The notes: generated by a model not told the origin, from the sequence alone. DNA of 39,643 nucleotides from Sulfurimonas sp. (GCF_028694895.1 NZ_JAQVKA010000008.1:1-39643), one strand, 5' to 3'. Shown: positions 26,396 to 36,683, numbered from the stretch's first letter. Numbers and translations are program-made.

Positions 26396-26471
26396 GGCCA
26401 ATTAGCTCAGTCGGTAGAGCAAATGACTGAAAATCATTGTGTCCTTGGTTCGATTCCGAGATTGGCCACCA
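26396..26471 (+). tRNA. tRNA-Phe(GAA), copy 1
   Basis: GGCCAAT/ATTGGCC acceptor, D-stem GCTC/GAGC, anticodon stem-loop AATGA-CTGAAAA-TCATT (anticodon GAA), T-arm CTTGG-TTCGATT-CCGAG, encoded ACCA. Confidence 0.97.
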
Positions 26472-26501
26472 CCACTTTTGAAGACTTCTAAATTTTATTA
26501 T

Positions 26502-26577
26502 GGCCAATTAGCTCAGTCGGTAGAGCAAATGACTGAAAATCATTGTGTCCTTGGTTCGATTCCGAGATTGGCCACCA
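26502..26577 (+). tRNA. tRNA-Phe(GAA), copy 2
   Basis: Sequence identical over all 76 nt to 26396-26471. Confidence 0.97.
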
Positions 26578-26623
26578 CCTTTTGTATCAAAATAATCTTA
26601 TTTACACAATATTTTTAAAACAC

Positions 26624-26632
26624 TGCTATAAT
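26624..26632 (+). promoter_or_regulatory. Extended -10 promoter element of ssrA
   Basis: TGCTATAAT (extended -10 consensus TGnTATAAT) ending 10 nt before the tmRNA 5' GGGG. Confidence 0.65.
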
Positions 26633-26642
26633 TCCACTCAAT

Positions 26643-27019
26643 GGGGCTGACCTGGTTTCGACGGGATCAAGTAGCTTCTAATTGCATGTCGGACTGAGCA
26701 TTTCCGTTACGCGGCTCAACTTGCTTAAACGCAAACAATACAAATTATCGCCCAGCTTACGCAGTAGCTTAAGTTTTAACCCCTCGAAAGAGGCGGGCTG
26801 CTTCACCTATGGACTCTGGATAGATAGGATTCGAAGTATAACCCTTATGCAGATATACTTTACGTTTGTCTCGGACGTAAAAAGAAACTTAGAGGCTCGT
26901 CTTGTGTAACTTTGCAAGCTGTGTGAAGCAAGATTAAAAAATAAACAACTTTACTAAACATGTAGACGTTAGGAGTAGCGTGGTTTCGGACTGGAGTTCG
27001 ATCCTCCACAGCTCCACCA
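26643..27019 (+). ncRNA. ssrA: Transfer-messenger RNA (tmRNA)
   Basis: 5' GGGGCTGACCTGGTTTCGACGGG and 3' GGAGTTCGATCCTCCACAGCTCCACCA; tag ORF 26731-26772 encodes ANNTNYRPAYAVA*. Confidence 0.97.
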
Positions 27020-30440: not shown

Positions 30441-30488
30441 GCAATAGCTATATATACTTTGTACATACTATAAATATTGAGGTTAATT

Positions 30489-32351
30489 TTGAAGTTTTTG
30501 GTTATCTTATCGCTACTACTCTCATCTGTCTATGCACAGGAGAGCAACCTTGATGACCTCCTATCAAAGTATCGCCAAGCAAATGAACTTCATAACGAAA
30601 CAAAAGATGAAAAATCTGGGCATGTTATAGTATATTCTCGCTCAGACTTAGACAAAATGCAGGCGTATACTCTTAATGATGTACTAAAGACTATCAAGCT
30701 ATTTACTCTAAAGAGCACAAATTTTGGCCTTACCTCGTTAGTTAAAACTCCATATGCAGAAAGCTCTATGCCCTCTATAAAAATATATATAAACTCTTAT
30801 GAGTTATCATCCATTACCACTGGTTCTGGACTAGCACAATATGGAAAGATGGGGCTTAACCACATAGATCACATTGAGATATATCAAGCTTCAAATACGA
30901 TAAGTTTTCATGGAGAATCTGGAAATATGGTTATAAAGTTATATACTAAAGATCCATCAAAAGAGAACGCAACCGTTCTTCAAGCCTCTGCAGACTCAAA
31001 GGGTGGCACTAGAGGTCAAATCATAGACGCTCAAAGCTTTGATGAGTACTCCTACTTGGCAAATGCTGATGTAAGTAATAGTAACTACGATGAGCAAATT
31101 AGCCCGAACGGAAGTCTTTATTCAAGAGATGGAAATAGAGGTCAGTTCTACTTTAACTTTACAAAAAAAGATGATTACATTATAGAAGGCGGAGCTTCAG
31201 TTGAAGACTATAATCTTTACAGCGGATTTGCAAGTTCCATAACAGGCGGTGATATAAATACAAAGTATACTTATCTTAGTTTTACTAAACAATTTGAAAA
31301 AAATATAGAGCTTATTTTCTCTACTACTTATGAAACAGTGGATATAGCAAATACAGACTCTTTAGGAATAAATCTATTTGATGGTAGTTCGAGCAATGCT
31401 TTAGAGATACAAAATGGCTCTTTCACACATGATTTAGTATTGCAAAAAAGAGATACATATAAAGACAACAACCTTCTTTATGGTATTCAAATAAAGAAAA
31501 AAGCCTTTTTCTTGGATTCATTTAAAAGTAACGGTGTAGAAAAGCCTATTATCCTTGGCCCAAAAAACCTCGATATATATATGCTCTTTTTTGAAGATAC
31601 ATACAGCATAAATGATAGTAACAAAATCACCTTTAGCACAAAGTTTGATCACTTTGAGAATCATGCTACAAAATCAACTACAGAAAATATTTTACGTCTT
31701 GCATATATCTCAAGGTTAAATGATGAGCTATCTGTTAAAACTATTATTCAAAATGGATATGTTTATCCTCTTGCAACACAAACAACTTTCTCTCCGCTAT
31801 ACAACATAAATCCAAACCTAGAGAGATCAAAGGTGAGTATTGCAAAAGCAGAAATAGAATATGAAAAAGATGATTTAACATTAACTCTTGGAGCAGCCGC
31901 ATCGAAGTCTAAAAATAATATTGTTTTCAATCCCACACTAAATATGTATGTAAATAATGATAGTAGTTCTGATTTTTCTCAAATGTCTTTGGGTACAGAG
32001 TATAGATTTAGCTCAGAAAATAAAATCATACTAGAATACTTCAAAGCCTTCAAAGAAAATGGCAATCTATCTTCAGACTCTGGCGCCCTGCTTCAACTAT
32101 ACACTACATATGGCAAGTTTGATATCTATAATGAGCTTGTATATAGATCATCGTATAGAGGAATAGATAATGTTTATGTTGATGATGGTTATGATTATAC
32201 AGCGGGGGCAATCTATCACCATAATAAAGATATAAATATAAAACTAAAAGGTGAGAATCTCTTTGATAAGGCAATAGAGAGTAGTATTAAAGGAGTGAGT
32301 ATCCCTTCTCTTGAGAGAAGATTGATCTTAACACTGGAGTATATTTTTTAA
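30489..32351 (+). CDS. TonB-dependent receptor-like outer-membrane protein (plug domain + beta-barrel)
   Basis: Signal peptide MKFLVILSLLLSSVYA (TTG at 30489; ORF track begins 30477); plug-like region (VIVYSRSDLDKMQAYTLNDVLKTI..IKIYINSYEL..HIDHIEIYQASNTISFHGESGNMVIKLYTKD); ends ..RRLILTLEYIF with terminal aromatic residue. Confidence 0.82.
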   Translation: MKFLVILSLLLSSVYAQESNLDDLLSKYRQANELHNETKDEKSGHVIVYSRSDLDKMQAYTLNDVLKTIKLFTLKSTNFGLTSLVKTPYAESSMPSIKIYINSYELSSITTGSGLAQYGKMGLNHIDHIEIYQASNTISFHGESGNMVIKLYTKDPSKENATVLQASADSKGGTRGQIIDAQSFDEYSYLANADVSNSNYDEQISPNGSLYSRDGNRGQFYFNFTKKDDYIIEGGASVEDYNLYSGFASSITGGDINTKYTYLSFTKQFEKNIELIFSTTYETVDIANTDSLGINLFDGSSSNALEIQNGSFTHDLVLQKRDTYKDNNLLYGIQIKKKAFFLDSFKSNGVEKPIILGPKNLDIYMLFFEDTYSINDSNKITFSTKFDHFENHATKSTTENILRLAYISRLNDELSVKTIIQNGYVYPLATQTTFSPLYNINPNLERSKVSIAKAEIEYEKDDLTLTLGAAASKSKNNIVFNPTLNMYVNNDSSSDFSQMSLGTEYRFSSENKIILEYFKAFKENGNLSSDSGALLQLYTTYGKFDIYNELVYRSSYRGIDNVYVDDGYDYTAGAIYHHNKDINIKLKGENLFDKAIESSIKGVSIPSLERRLILTLEYIF

Positions 32352-32783
32352 ATGAAGATATTTTTACTCTCCCTACTTTTAGCACTAACGCTTTTTTCAA
32401 ACGAAAACAAAGAGACTATTCAAGTAGAAATTTTAGAGAAAATTTTTCAAAATATCTCTTTAGATGATAAGATAGTAATATGGTCTGATAATAAAAATAT
32501 AATTCAAGAGTTTGAAAAAAGAGCCCACTTCTCTACGACTGAGGAGTGCCAAAAAGCTTCAATAATTGTACTTGAAGATAAGAAAAATTTAAAAGAAGGC
32601 TCTTGTGATAAAGCTATTTTTGTACTTAATTATGAGCTTTTAAAAGAGATTCCTAGAAGTTTTGGCTCGATGTTTTGGAAAAAAGGCAGACCAAACATTG
32701 TAATAATTGAGCCAAGAATAAAAGAGCAAAATATCTCAATATCTAAAAAACTTGACATATATAAAGAAGAAAAGATATGGTAA
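32352..32783 (+). CDS. Small secreted/periplasmic protein of unknown function (possibly YfiR/DUF4154-like; unverified)
   Basis: Signal peptide MKIFLLSLLLALTLFS; ends within the next gene; C-terminal SFGSMFWKKGRPNIVIIEPRIKEQNISISKKL. Confidence 0.6.
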   Translation: MKIFLLSLLLALTLFSNENKETIQVEILEKIFQNISLDDKIVIWSDNKNIIQEFEKRAHFSTTEECQKASIIVLEDKKNLKEGSCDKAIFVLNYELLKEIPRSFGSMFWKKGRPNIVIIEPRIKEQNISISKKLDIYKEEKIW

Positions 32784-34702
32784 GAAAAAGGGGACTAGTA
32801 GTCTTTTCTCTGCTCTTTATGCTTGGGCTATTTTTAGCATATACTTATAATGCTATTTCAAAAGCAAAAGAGACTATTTTTGAGCGCATTGAAAAGCATG
32901 AGATAGATCATATATCTTTAGTCTTGCAAAATCTACAAAAAGACATATGCGCAAATAATCCAATTACGGATCAAGAGGGTTTAGTCTCTTTTTTTGAGCA
33001 AAAACAAAATAGAGAAAAATATGAGCATATTCTCTCAATGGCGCTATCTTCGGATGTTAAATATTCATATATATTATATAAAGACGATGAGAATAAGTTT
33101 AGATTTTTACTTGATGCATCAAAAACAGACAAAGCAAACTTCAACCAAAAATTTGATATTAATTTAAAAGAGTATAACCTTATCTACACGCTAAAAGAGC
33201 CTCAAATTATAAAACAAAAAAATATTGAAAACATCTATGTAACCTATCTTTACCCGATTATAAGCAGCAGTGGGGTTGTCGTTGGATTTTTTAACATAGA
33301 CTTTACAACAGATATAAAGATGATTATTTTAGACTCTATCAAACCTCTAGAAGCCTTTTTTAACATACTAACTATCTTCATATTTATATTTATTGGTGTT
33401 GCACTTGTGCAAATCTTTCACTACTTTATAACTAGAAAAAAGATTTTTACAGATACTCTTACAAACACATTTAACAGAAACTATCTCGAAGAGATAGAGC
33501 ATGTACTAAACCTCGAAAAATATTCTGTTGCCATACTTGATTTGGATAAATTTAAATTTATCAATGATACATACGGGCATAAAGCTGGAGATTATATTCT
33601 CTCCCATGTCAGTGCTATATTTAAAGATTCCATTAGAGATAGTGACATATTAGTTCGTTATGGAGGAGAGGAGTTCTTACTTCTTATAAACAACAGAGAC
33701 GATTCAAAATCAAACTTAAATATTTGTGAGAGAATAAGAAGCAATATTGCTCAAGAAAATTTTTCATTTGATGGACATGATATAAAAGTAACTCTCTCTA
33801 TGGGAGTTCACAAGCATCCATCCCTAGAAAAAAATCTCCAAGAAGCTATCAAAATAGCTGATAAGATGCTTTATGAAGCAAAACGTAGTGGTAGAAATAA
33901 AATAGTTATTTATGATGAGAAACTAAGTAGCTACTCATCAGCATCTTCTTCTGCAAAATATCTGAGCTTTGTAAAAGAGGCTTTAGATGAAAATCGTATA
34001 ATATGCCACTATCAACCTATATACAATCATAAAACAGGAGAGATTTTTAAATATGAAGCTCTTGTTCGAATTATTGATAAAGATGGAAAAACAGTTATGC
34101 CTATGAGTTTTATGCCATATATAAAGCTCACAAACATGCACTATAAGCTCACGCAAAGAATCCTATCTCTAGTTTTAGATAAGTTTAAAGAGAACCAACT
34201 TCTTGTAAGTATAAATATTAATTTCTCAGATTTAATGAATCCAGATATTGAACAAAGCATTGTAAGGGCACTAAAATCAAACCATCACTTAGCTTCTAGA
34301 GTAACTTTTGAGATACTAGAGAGTGATGAGATTGATAATATTGAGCTCTTTAAACAAAAGATTCATCTTCTTCATTCACTAAAAGCAAAAGTCTCTATTG
34401 ATGATTTTGGCAGCGGATACTCAAACTTTAAAAGCGTTATTGATGTTGAAGCAAATTTTCTAAAAATTGATGGCTCTTTAATTAAAAACATAGATGTAAA
34501 TAGTAAAGATTTCAAAGTGGTCAAGAGCATCATACACTTTGCAGCACAGAGCAACATGCAGACAATCGCTGAGTTTGTGCACTCAAGAGAAGTTTATGAG
34601 AAGCTTCTTCTTTTAGATATAGACTACATGCAAGGTTACTATATATCTAAGCCAGAAGCTCATCTAGTTTTAAAAAATGAGCTTTTTAAAACAGTTTTTT
34701 AA
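32777..34702 (+). CDS. Membrane GGDEF-EAL protein with periplasmic sensory domain
   Basis: Two TM segments around a ~165-aa extracytoplasmic region; GGEEF (VRYGGEEFLLL); EAL domain with YEALVRI, SININ, FEILES, DDFGSGYSNF, LKIDGSLI, IAEFV. Confidence 0.93.
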   Translation: MVRKRGLVVFSLLFMLGLFLAYTYNAISKAKETIFERIEKHEIDHISLVLQNLQKDICANNPITDQEGLVSFFEQKQNREKYEHILSMALSSDVKYSYILYKDDENKFRFLLDASKTDKANFNQKFDINLKEYNLIYTLKEPQIIKQKNIENIYVTYLYPIISSSGVVVGFFNIDFTTDIKMIILDSIKPLEAFFNILTIFIFIFIGVALVQIFHYFITRKKIFTDTLTNTFNRNYLEEIEHVLNLEKYSVAILDLDKFKFINDTYGHKAGDYILSHVSAIFKDSIRDSDILVRYGGEEFLLLINNRDDSKSNLNICERIRSNIAQENFSFDGHDIKVTLSMGVHKHPSLEKNLQEAIKIADKMLYEAKRSGRNKIVIYDEKLSSYSSASSSAKYLSFVKEALDENRIICHYQPIYNHKTGEIFKYEALVRIIDKDGKTVMPMSFMPYIKLTNMHYKLTQRILSLVLDKFKENQLLVSININFSDLMNPDIEQSIVRALKSNHHLASRVTFEILESDEIDNIELFKQKIHLLHSLKAKVSIDDFGSGYSNFKSVIDVEANFLKIDGSLIKNIDVNSKDFKVVKSIIHFAAQSNMQTIAEFVHSREVYEKLLLLDIDYMQGYYISKPEAHLVLKNELFKTVF

Positions 34703-36683
34703 ATAATTTATCAACTTTTTCTATTACTTTTTTACCAGTTTCTGATTTTAAAAATTTCTCTAAATCAATACTAACTTTTGGAGAGTTGATATCTCCGTTA
34801 AGATTTGCATGTATTGTGTCATTTTTTATAACTATAGTTAAATCAGAATTCATCTGATTTGTTTTAGTGTTTAGCTTTGCATCTTTTGTTGTAAGTGCCG
34901 TCTCTTTTGAGCGCATATCAAGTGAAGCTAAGATGTTTTCTTTGTTTATCTTTGCACCCACTTTTCCATTGAAGTTTTCTCTATACATATCAACTTTTGT
35001 AAACTGCTTGATTAAATCAAATGTTTGATTTTTTGTAAACACTGCGTTTAAAATATCTCCATTAACCTCGCCCTTACTTTGAGCTAAATTGTAATTTACT
35101 TTTGCGTTTAATGTAGCATCAACTAACTCTGGACGCATTAACATATATAGAAGTTTCATTGTTTTTACGTCACTTATATTTGCACTAAAATCATCATTAT
35201 GAAGTTTTGCATCTAATACTCCACCAGATATGTTTGAGTGAAGTGCAAAATCTAAATCTTCCGCCTTTGAAAGCTCTCCATTTCCGACAAATCCACCTCG
35301 CATATGCTGTCCTGTTACGAAGTAAAGATTATTTAACTCATTTACACTAATCATATAATCACTCTTTAGTGAGCCATCTTTTATGTTAAATTTTGCACTC
35401 TTTATATCAAGGTTTGCAAGATTAGAGTTAAAATTAACCTTTGTATCTGCCATAGAGCCTTTTAAAACTGTAGTAGTCTTGGCGCTAAAAGTACTTCTTG
35501 GCATAGCAGATGAGAACTCATACGCTTTACTTAGATAAGCAGAGTCAAAAACTCCATTTGTGATGCTACTCTTCACCTCACCCTTTAATGAATCCACTCT
35601 TGCATCGCTAATATCTGCGTCAAGTGAAAGAAGTGCATCAGCGTAGTGTGGTTGTTTTACCATATAGAGAAGTTTTGCAACATCAAGATTTACTATCTTT
35701 GCTCTAAGTGACTCTGGAGCGAAATCTTTTAACACCGCTTCAATTGTAGTTTGTGAAGAAGCCACATCGCTATTTGCTTGAACTACAAGCTTACTTTTAT
35801 CTCCATTTAGTGTTCCATTTAACTTTAGTGCGCCTCTAATATCTGCGCCACTGATAGGCTTTAGTACTTCTAAATCTTTTACATCAAGCGCGTATTTTAT
35901 ATCAGCTTTAAAAGGCTCTGGAGTAAGTGTTCCTGAACTACTTATCTTAAAAAGATTTGATACCAAATCATAGTTATATACTACATCATCACCCTTGAGT
36001 TTTGCATCAAGGTTCATGTCAAAAGAAGTTTTTGGAACAGTTACATTAAAATCACTCTTCATAAACTCTGGATTTATAACTCCATTTTTAGTAGAGAGTT
36101 TTATCTCTCCATCGAGTTTATGAGGAGTTATGTTTTTGAGATTTATATCAAGATTTATATCTGCTACTGCATATGGGTTTTTAGCTCCCATATAAAGCAG
36201 TGAAGAGAGTTTTGCGTTTTTCATATTTGCAATAATTGAAGTTGGATTTAAATCACTAAGCTCAACGTGGTAAGAGGTGTCACTCTGCCCTACACTACTT
36301 TTTCCATCTATTGTCATAAAAGCCAAATCGCCTTTTACCGCTCCATCTGTGTTAAATGATCCATTTAAAGGCATATTTAAAATCGGCTCTAAAGATTTGA
36401 GATTTTTAAAGTCTATCTCATAATTTATATCAAAAGATTTTGCAAAAATTGAGTAACTGCCTTTTGCGATTACTAAGTTGTCTTTAGCAAGTTCAAGCAC
36501 TACTTCAAAATCACTCATACTAAGTAAAAAAGTATTTAATTTACTCTCAACCTTCGTCTGCTCTTGTATCTTCGCCTCTATGATAGGTTTAAGTAAACTA
36601 TTTCCAACTGGTGTAAAAGCAACTACATAAAGGGCTATAACTAAAAGTAAAATCAGTCCAACTACCCAAGCTAAATATTTCAT
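34686..36683 (-). CDS. AsmA-like / large periplasmic repeat membrane protein
   Basis: Single N-terminal TM (YLAWVVGLILLLVIALYVVAF) followed by repetitive beta-rich segments (LDLDIN.., 'G.FN..GAVKGDL', 'KLLYM' repeats) as in AsmA-like proteins. Confidence 0.6.
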   Translation of the reverse strand: MKYLAWVVGLILLLVIALYVVAFTPVGNSLLKPIIEAKIQEQTKVESKLNTFLLSMSDFEVVLELAKDNLVIAKGSYSIFAKSFDINYEIDFKNLKSLEPILNMPLNGSFNTDGAVKGDLAFMTIDGKSSVGQSDTSYHVELSDLNPTSIIANMKNAKLSSLLYMGAKNPYAVADINLDINLKNITPHKLDGEIKLSTKNGVINPEFMKSDFNVTVPKTSFDMNLDAKLKGDDVVYNYDLVSNLFKISSSGTLTPEPFKADIKYALDVKDLEVLKPISGADIRGALKLNGTLNGDKSKLVVQANSDVASSQTTIEAVLKDFAPESLRAKIVNLDVAKLLYMVKQPHYADALLSLDADISDARVDSLKGEVKSSITNGVFDSAYLSKAYEFSSAMPRSTFSAKTTTVLKGSMADTKVNFNSNLANLDIKSAKFNIKDGSLKSDYMISVNELNNLYFVTGQHMRGGFVGNGELSKAEDLDFALHSNISGGVLDAKLHNDDFSANISDVKTMKLLYMLMRPELVDATLNAKVNYNLAQSKGEVNGDILNAVFTKNQTFDLIKQFTKVDMYRENFNGKVGAKINKENILASLDMRSKETALTTKDAKLNTKTNQMNSDLTIVIKNDTIHANLNGDINSPKVSIDLEKFLKSETGKKVIEKVDKLFKKLF

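Follow-up and report, generated by a model that had tools for sequence, protein, structure and literature searches.

The closest described counterparts of the locus reported here are YfiBNR (TpbB) of Pseudomonas aeruginosa and HmsCDE of Yersinia. In these systems an outer-membrane component, the OmpA-like lipoprotein YfiB, is encoded in a tight gene cluster with a small periplasmic YfiR-fold protein carrying a Cys pair and with an inner-membrane GGDEF protein, which has two transmembrane helices. In YfiR, one C-terminal surface serves both partners: strand 7 is where YfiB docks, and it overlaps the binding site for YfiN (PMC4655355). Divergent YfiR-YfiN[PAS] modules were described in silico by Malone et al. 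(2012), with GGDEF-EAL, Hpt or histidine kinase outputs and with YfiB often missing (PMC3375315). The window analysed here, a stretch of 39,643 nucleotides (nt) of Sulfurimonas sp. (GCF_028694895.1 NZ_JAQVKA010000008.1:1-39643), contains at positions 30489-34702 a trio of genes encoding a TonB-dependent receptor (TBDR), a small secreted protein with the YfiR fold and a GGDEF-EAL transducer, which are proposed to form a signalling module spanning three compartments.

All three genes lie on the same strand, between comF on one side and an oppositely oriented AsmA-like gene on the other. The TBDR gene and the small gene are separated by 0 nt, and the small gene overlaps the GGDEF-EAL gene (32777-34702) by 7 nt. 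These coordinates, the strand and the spacing agree with an earlier, preliminary description of this DNA, as do the length of 143 amino acids (aa) and the signal-peptide-like N-terminus of the second product, which had been taken as a secreted protein of about that size. For the TBDR, the TTG start at 30489 was preferred over the in-frame TTG at 30477 because a GAGG is present just upstream of 30489. The features of the trio are as follows.

30489..32351, plus strand: TBDR with signal peptide, short conserved N-terminal region, plug and beta-barrel with terminal F.
30546..30632, plus strand: conserved N-terminal periplasmic region of the receptor, 5' of the plug (conservation in 142 module receptors).
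32352..32783, plus strand: small secreted YfiR-fold protein, 143 aa (AlphaFold2 and Foldseek).
32664..32708, plus strand: near-invariant hairpin G105-x3-W109-x-KGRPNI and final strand of the small protein (conservation in 142 members).
32777..33424, plus strand: two transmembrane helices and periplasmic single-Cache (PDC) sensor domain of the transducer (AlphaFold2 predicted local distance difference test, pLDDT, 92; Foldseek).
33446..33901, plus strand: GGDEF domain of the transducer, with GGEEF and an RxxD I-site, motif RDSDILVRYGGEEF (PF00990, 7e-36).
33974..34654, plus strand: EAL domain of the transducer, with EAL, DD and K motifs kept (PF00563, 1e-58).

The small protein gave no match in Pfam or NCBIfam, nor against the PDB by phmmer or with a profile, and since identification by sequence had failed, its fold was compared. 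The AlphaFold2 model, based on 55 family sequences, had a pLDDT of 91.4 and a predicted TM-score (pTM) of 0.82. When this model was searched with Foldseek against 350,542 PDB chains, ranks 1-9 were all occupied by P. aeruginosa YfiR, the best match being 4yn9_B (E 9.9e-4, probability 1.00, TM 0.63, 8% identity). Below rank 9 were further YfiR entries together with one-lobe or half-domain binding proteins (8wgl, 3lft, 3lkv). PF13689 (DUF4154) matched 0 of the 55 family members; YfiR was retrieved from the PDB with a DUF4154 profile (2.6e-6), whereas the small-family profile retrieved nothing there. As modelled, the small protein is a member of a YfiR-fold family outside DUF4154. The preliminary description had assigned it to no clear family, which holds for its sequence and not for its fold. 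Of the two folds considered at that stage, DUF4154/YfiR or substrate-binding-like, the YfiR fold was obtained, without membership of DUF4154 by sequence, and binding-protein folds ranked below it.

The most conserved residues of the family, G105 (98% of the 142 members), W109 (99%), K111 (98%), R113 (99%) and P114 (94%), sit in the hairpin that leads into the last strand. By way of a weak colinear alignment, this hairpin and strand would be the equivalent of YfiR strand 7. Both cysteines of a pair (C66 and C85 in the window protein) were present in 94 members and neither in 40, with 8 members discordant. This pair echoes the paired cysteines of YfiR, which form disulfide pairs (PMC4655355).

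The window TBDR matched the Pfam Plug domain below threshold (18.4 bits against a cut-off of 23.9 bits), and in its ortholog L031 both the plug and the barrel were above the cut-off; the gene is classed as a TBDR with a predicted plug and 22-strand barrel. An N-terminal/plug profile behaved bimodally, with 59 module receptors at E <= 5e-39 and all others at E >= 2e-14. No canonical TonB box was obvious by eye in the window TBDR. At the place expected for one, module receptors carry the motif LLxxYxxxSxLSxxTKxExxG, in which L29 (98%), T42 (98%) and G48 (99%) are conserved across 142 module receptors, and this region is a candidate site for a TonB box or for partner binding. An STN domain was not matched by Pfam in the window TBDR, where only ~24 residues separate the signal peptide from the plug, and neither FecR nor FecI was found within the trio. 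Comparison of the TBDR sequence with the PDB yielded no usable ligand class. Besides the receptor of the trio, the host genome encodes three others with a plug, and it has three TonB genes.

In the transducer, transmembrane helices near residues 5 and 188 enclose a periplasmic domain that was modelled as a single Cache/PDC fold. Its best Foldseek matches were the sensor domains of WalK/YycG, KinD, Tlp3 and CitA, and its residues D113 and D175 are near-invariant. Pfam matched neither CHASE8 nor HAMP in the window transducer or its relatives, and no CHASE8 was found in the host genome. The intact GGEEF and RxxD motifs point to a GGDEF diguanylate cyclase as output, and for the EAL domain the translation shows EALVR, DDFGSGYS and KIDGSLIK.

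Relatives of the small protein were found in 46 of 99 related genomes. Across the phylum Campylobacterota its profile matched 87 of 397 genomes, distributed over 24 of 68 genera; a scan of named genomes located it in Sulfurimonas, Sulfuricurvum, Sulfurospirillum, Hydrogenimonas, Nitratiruptor, Nautiliaceae and others. The same scan revealed a second phylum, Aquificota (Aquificaceae and Hydrogenothermaceae), where all three genes recur and the output is GGDEF-EAL or EAL. A search for plasmid relatives of the small protein found none. Among 179 non-redundant copies of the small gene, a TBDR gene was immediately 5' in 169, with zero or overlapping spacing in 161 of these, and a two-transmembrane signalling protein was directly downstream in almost all. 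The gene on the 3' side encoded GGDEF-EAL in 98 copies, a GGDEF motif in 45, a kinase in 15 and EAL with a degenerate GGDEF in 6, the rest being other genes, truncated or at a contig end. The preliminary description had made its proposal depend on the three-gene linkage recurring elsewhere, and it does so in two phyla.

Of the 99 related genomes, 44 had all three parts and 51 had none of them (Fisher p 1e-23 to 1e-27 for co-occurrence and co-absence of the parts, a p that ignores phylogeny). The arrangement is far beyond chance. Orthologs of the trio usually lie between lepA and comF; two trios (L036 and L042) lie outside these flanks, and the order was once rearranged to transducer-TBDR-small (G062, L088). 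The linkage is therefore not due to one frozen context. A fortuitous or frozen operon with no functional coupling would fit the single lepA-comF context shared by most close relatives. The spread over 24 of the 68 sampled genera and a second phylum, the different contexts, the joint loss and the rearranged order argue against it; co-occurrence in unrelated contexts has already largely refuted this explanation, which is now highly improbable.

Some copies of the trio showed apparent decay. In L040 (G004:C13) a stop interrupts the small gene with both partners open, and at the G011 and G048 loci (L056 and L051) the receptor is split.

The outputs of the module are exchangeable. A single sensor profile retrieved GGDEF-EAL, GGDEF and histidine kinase proteins alike, and on a tree of the TBDR plus small protein 10 output changes were counted against 38 expected from shuffled labels. 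The kinases formed a single clade, the other changes being gains or losses of EAL. A candidate recent swap to a histidine kinase (L253) was rejected as a truncated GGDEF-EAL protein. Degenerate GGDEF motifs (GGSEF, GGAEF, GGGEF, SGAEF) were seen together with an intact-looking EAL in L226, L241, L247, L252 and L266, and the motifs suggest a net phosphodiesterase output there. Because some modules pair the two in this way, the net output across modules may be synthesis or hydrolysis.

Set beside YfiBNR and HmsCDE, the trio has a TBDR in place of the OmpA-like lipoprotein and contains no OmpA domain, its small protein falls outside PF13689, and its transducer has a Cache sensor where YfiN has CHASE8, lacks HAMP and carries an EAL domain. 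The gene order also differs, being receptor-small-transducer, as do the phyla, Campylobacterota and Aquificota, and the kinase clade uses histidine kinases rather than enzymes of cyclic di-GMP (c-di-GMP). The parallel with YfiB-YfiR-YfiN drawn in the preliminary description is thus borne out for the three-part architecture and the YfiR fold, but more than one part has been exchanged: a small protein outside DUF4154, a Cache sensor, no HAMP and a kinase clade all go beyond the replacement of YfiB by a TBDR.

In the genomes of the Sulfurimonas relatives, 19 of 21 true DUF4154 genes had a TBDR within two open reading frames. Their neighbours include CHASE8-GGDEF or CHASE8-HAMP-kinase genes, confirmed by Pfam in the examples scanned. 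Two Sphingobium plasmids carry a TBDR, a YfiR and a CHASE8 hybrid kinase; on one of them the RefSeq labels read 'TonB-dependent receptor, YfiR family protein, ATP-binding protein', and an annotated example is SIDU_RS18035-18045 on Sphingobium indicum pSRL1. These trios share the three-part layout, in which a TBDR gene precedes those of the YfiR-family protein and the sensor transducer, and differ in having true DUF4154 and CHASE8 domains and, in the Campylobacterota versions, another TBDR N-terminus (SLEDLLxxExxxxxxVGSR), similarly placed. The DUF4154/YfiR-TBDR loci (L278-L294, L296; L297, NZ_CP013071.1; L298, AP027331.1) appear to represent a widespread, undescribed arrangement. Pairing a YfiR-type protein with a TBDR as its outer-membrane partner is a design that recurs. 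Its use with two YfiR lineages and two sensor folds is the strongest evidence for the TBDR as a functional partner of YfiR-type proteins.

We consider it fairly probable that the trio works as a signalling module spanning three compartments, in which the state of the receptor is relayed through the small protein to the transducer. The dedicated outer-membrane TBDR would sense or import a ligand, and its state would alter the engagement of the small YfiR-fold protein, probably through the conserved N-terminal periplasmic segment or the plug. The YfiR-like protein, when free or released, would dock on the Cache domain of the transducer and so set the cytoplasmic GGDEF-EAL activity. The docked state would most likely inhibit GGDEF, and capture of the small protein by the receptor would lift this inhibition. 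This sign, a repressor with sequestration, is borrowed from YfiR-YfiN-YfiB (PMC3375315, PMC4655355), and direct contacts and ligand dependence are likewise inferred. In favour of the relay, the nine best PDB folds are YfiR, the Cys pair echoes that of YfiR, the near-invariant hairpin maps to the YfiR docking region, the TBDR is linked in 169 of the 179 copies and a transducer follows in almost all, the parts are present or absent jointly and in more than one context, one sensor domain carries different outputs, the DUF4154 loci run parallel and the host has TonB genes.

Several observations weigh against the relay. The kinship with YfiR is one of predicted fold only (TM about 0.6, 8% identity), and hhalign of the small family with the true DUF4154 proteins of the same genomes gave a colinear but weak alignment (21% probability). 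The fold is also common to lobes of substrate-binding proteins (3lft, 3lkv), which is compatible with a ligand carrier, and a small molecule could act on the Cache domain by direct binding. Two modules (L083, L084) keep the small protein beside a kinase with a different sensor. Distance trees of the trio parts were correlated (r 0.82-0.87) and were given no weight as evidence for contact, because co-inheritance in an operon yields the same result.

The main rival follows from the resemblance to a binding-protein lobe: as a one-lobe binding protein, the small protein would take ligand from the TBDR and present the ligand, or its liganded self, to the Cache domain, with no sequestration at the outer membrane. 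LuxP serves LuxQ, and NspS serves MbaA, in a comparable way. Such a shuttle would suit the binding proteins with a YfiR-like half-domain fold that Foldseek also lists, and the Cache domain, since domains of this type often bind ligands and D113 and D175 are near-invariant. However, YfiR structures stand above all binding proteins in the Foldseek ranking, the top conserved residues lie on the hairpin that appears to match the YfiR docking strand rather than scattered round a putative cleft, and the unit has no recurring transporter gene. We regard the shuttle as rather unlikely. It is less likely still that the Cache domain senses the imported ligand directly, the small protein aiding receptor assembly or plug function in an operon that merely co-expresses uptake and sensor. 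The resemblance to the ligand-binding domains of CitA, KinD and Tlp3 and the tight spacing of the small gene to the receptor would agree with this, but it leaves unexplained both the YfiR fold and the DUF4154-YfiR proteins that occupy the same neighbourhood with a different sensor.

Other periplasmic signalling systems share parts of the proposed relay. In FecA-FecR-FecI, FpvA and HasR a TBDR signals ligand status inward, as proposed for the trio, which differs in lacking an STN signalling domain and an anti-sigma or sigma factor and in having a c-di-GMP or kinase output. In the NspS-MbaA and LuxP-LuxQ systems of Vibrio the inner-membrane transducer, a GGDEF-EAL protein in the case of MbaA, is regulated at its periplasmic domain by a periplasmic protein; unlike the trio, these units have no outer-membrane receptor and use full two-lobe binding proteins. 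The modules of Malone et al. resemble the trio in combining a YfiR-type regulator with exchangeable outputs, in an analysis confined to the homologous YfiR/YfiN family, the main text of which does not mention TonB (PMC3375315). No description of a YfiR-TBDR-diguanylate cyclase module, a possibility raised in the preliminary description, and no other work treating YfiR and a TBDR as one unit was found in open-access papers, supplementary tables lying outside the search; the open-access papers that name both YfiR and TonB have other subjects, judged by title and abstract, and DUF4154 is named in one open-access paper. A modular YfiR-YfiN core whose outputs vary is already known, and the TBDR as its outer-membrane partner appears to be new.

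More broadly, we give even chances to TBDRs being a broad class of outer-membrane inputs to YfiR-type relays, in which receptor occupancy would pass to a YfiR-fold messenger, on to Cache or CHASE8 transducers and then to c-di-GMP or a phosphorelay. Such relays would involve at least two YfiR lineages in Campylobacterota, Aquificota and Pseudomonadota, and would be a second general TBDR route beside FecA-FecR-FecI, one independent of sigma factors. The signal inputs of most c-di-GMP enzymes are a gap, and the signal of YfiR/YfiB is still debated. TBDRs normally take up iron complexes, vitamins or polymers; if the proposed relay is correct, a member of this family fixed beside a YfiR-fold protein would let a surface ligand control the switch between sessile and motile states. 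The relay would also account for many small periplasmic genes labelled 'hypothetical' in Campylobacterota and Aquificota and suggest a likely role for the TBDR-linked DUF4154 genes annotated in Pseudomonadota. Many hosts of the trio are sulfur- and hydrogen-oxidising bacteria, in which the relay would probably report what the surface receptor meets.

Two further features of the window were recorded. The AsmA-like repetitive protein next to the trio (665 aa, 34686-36683, minus strand) has no Pfam match; its gene and the 3' end of the transducer gene, on opposite strands, share 17 nt. Most syntenic relatives have a protein of about this length in the same slot. At 26396-27019, two tandem tRNA-Phe genes with equal scores are followed by a transfer-messenger RNA (tmRNA) gene, and prs begins just downstream.

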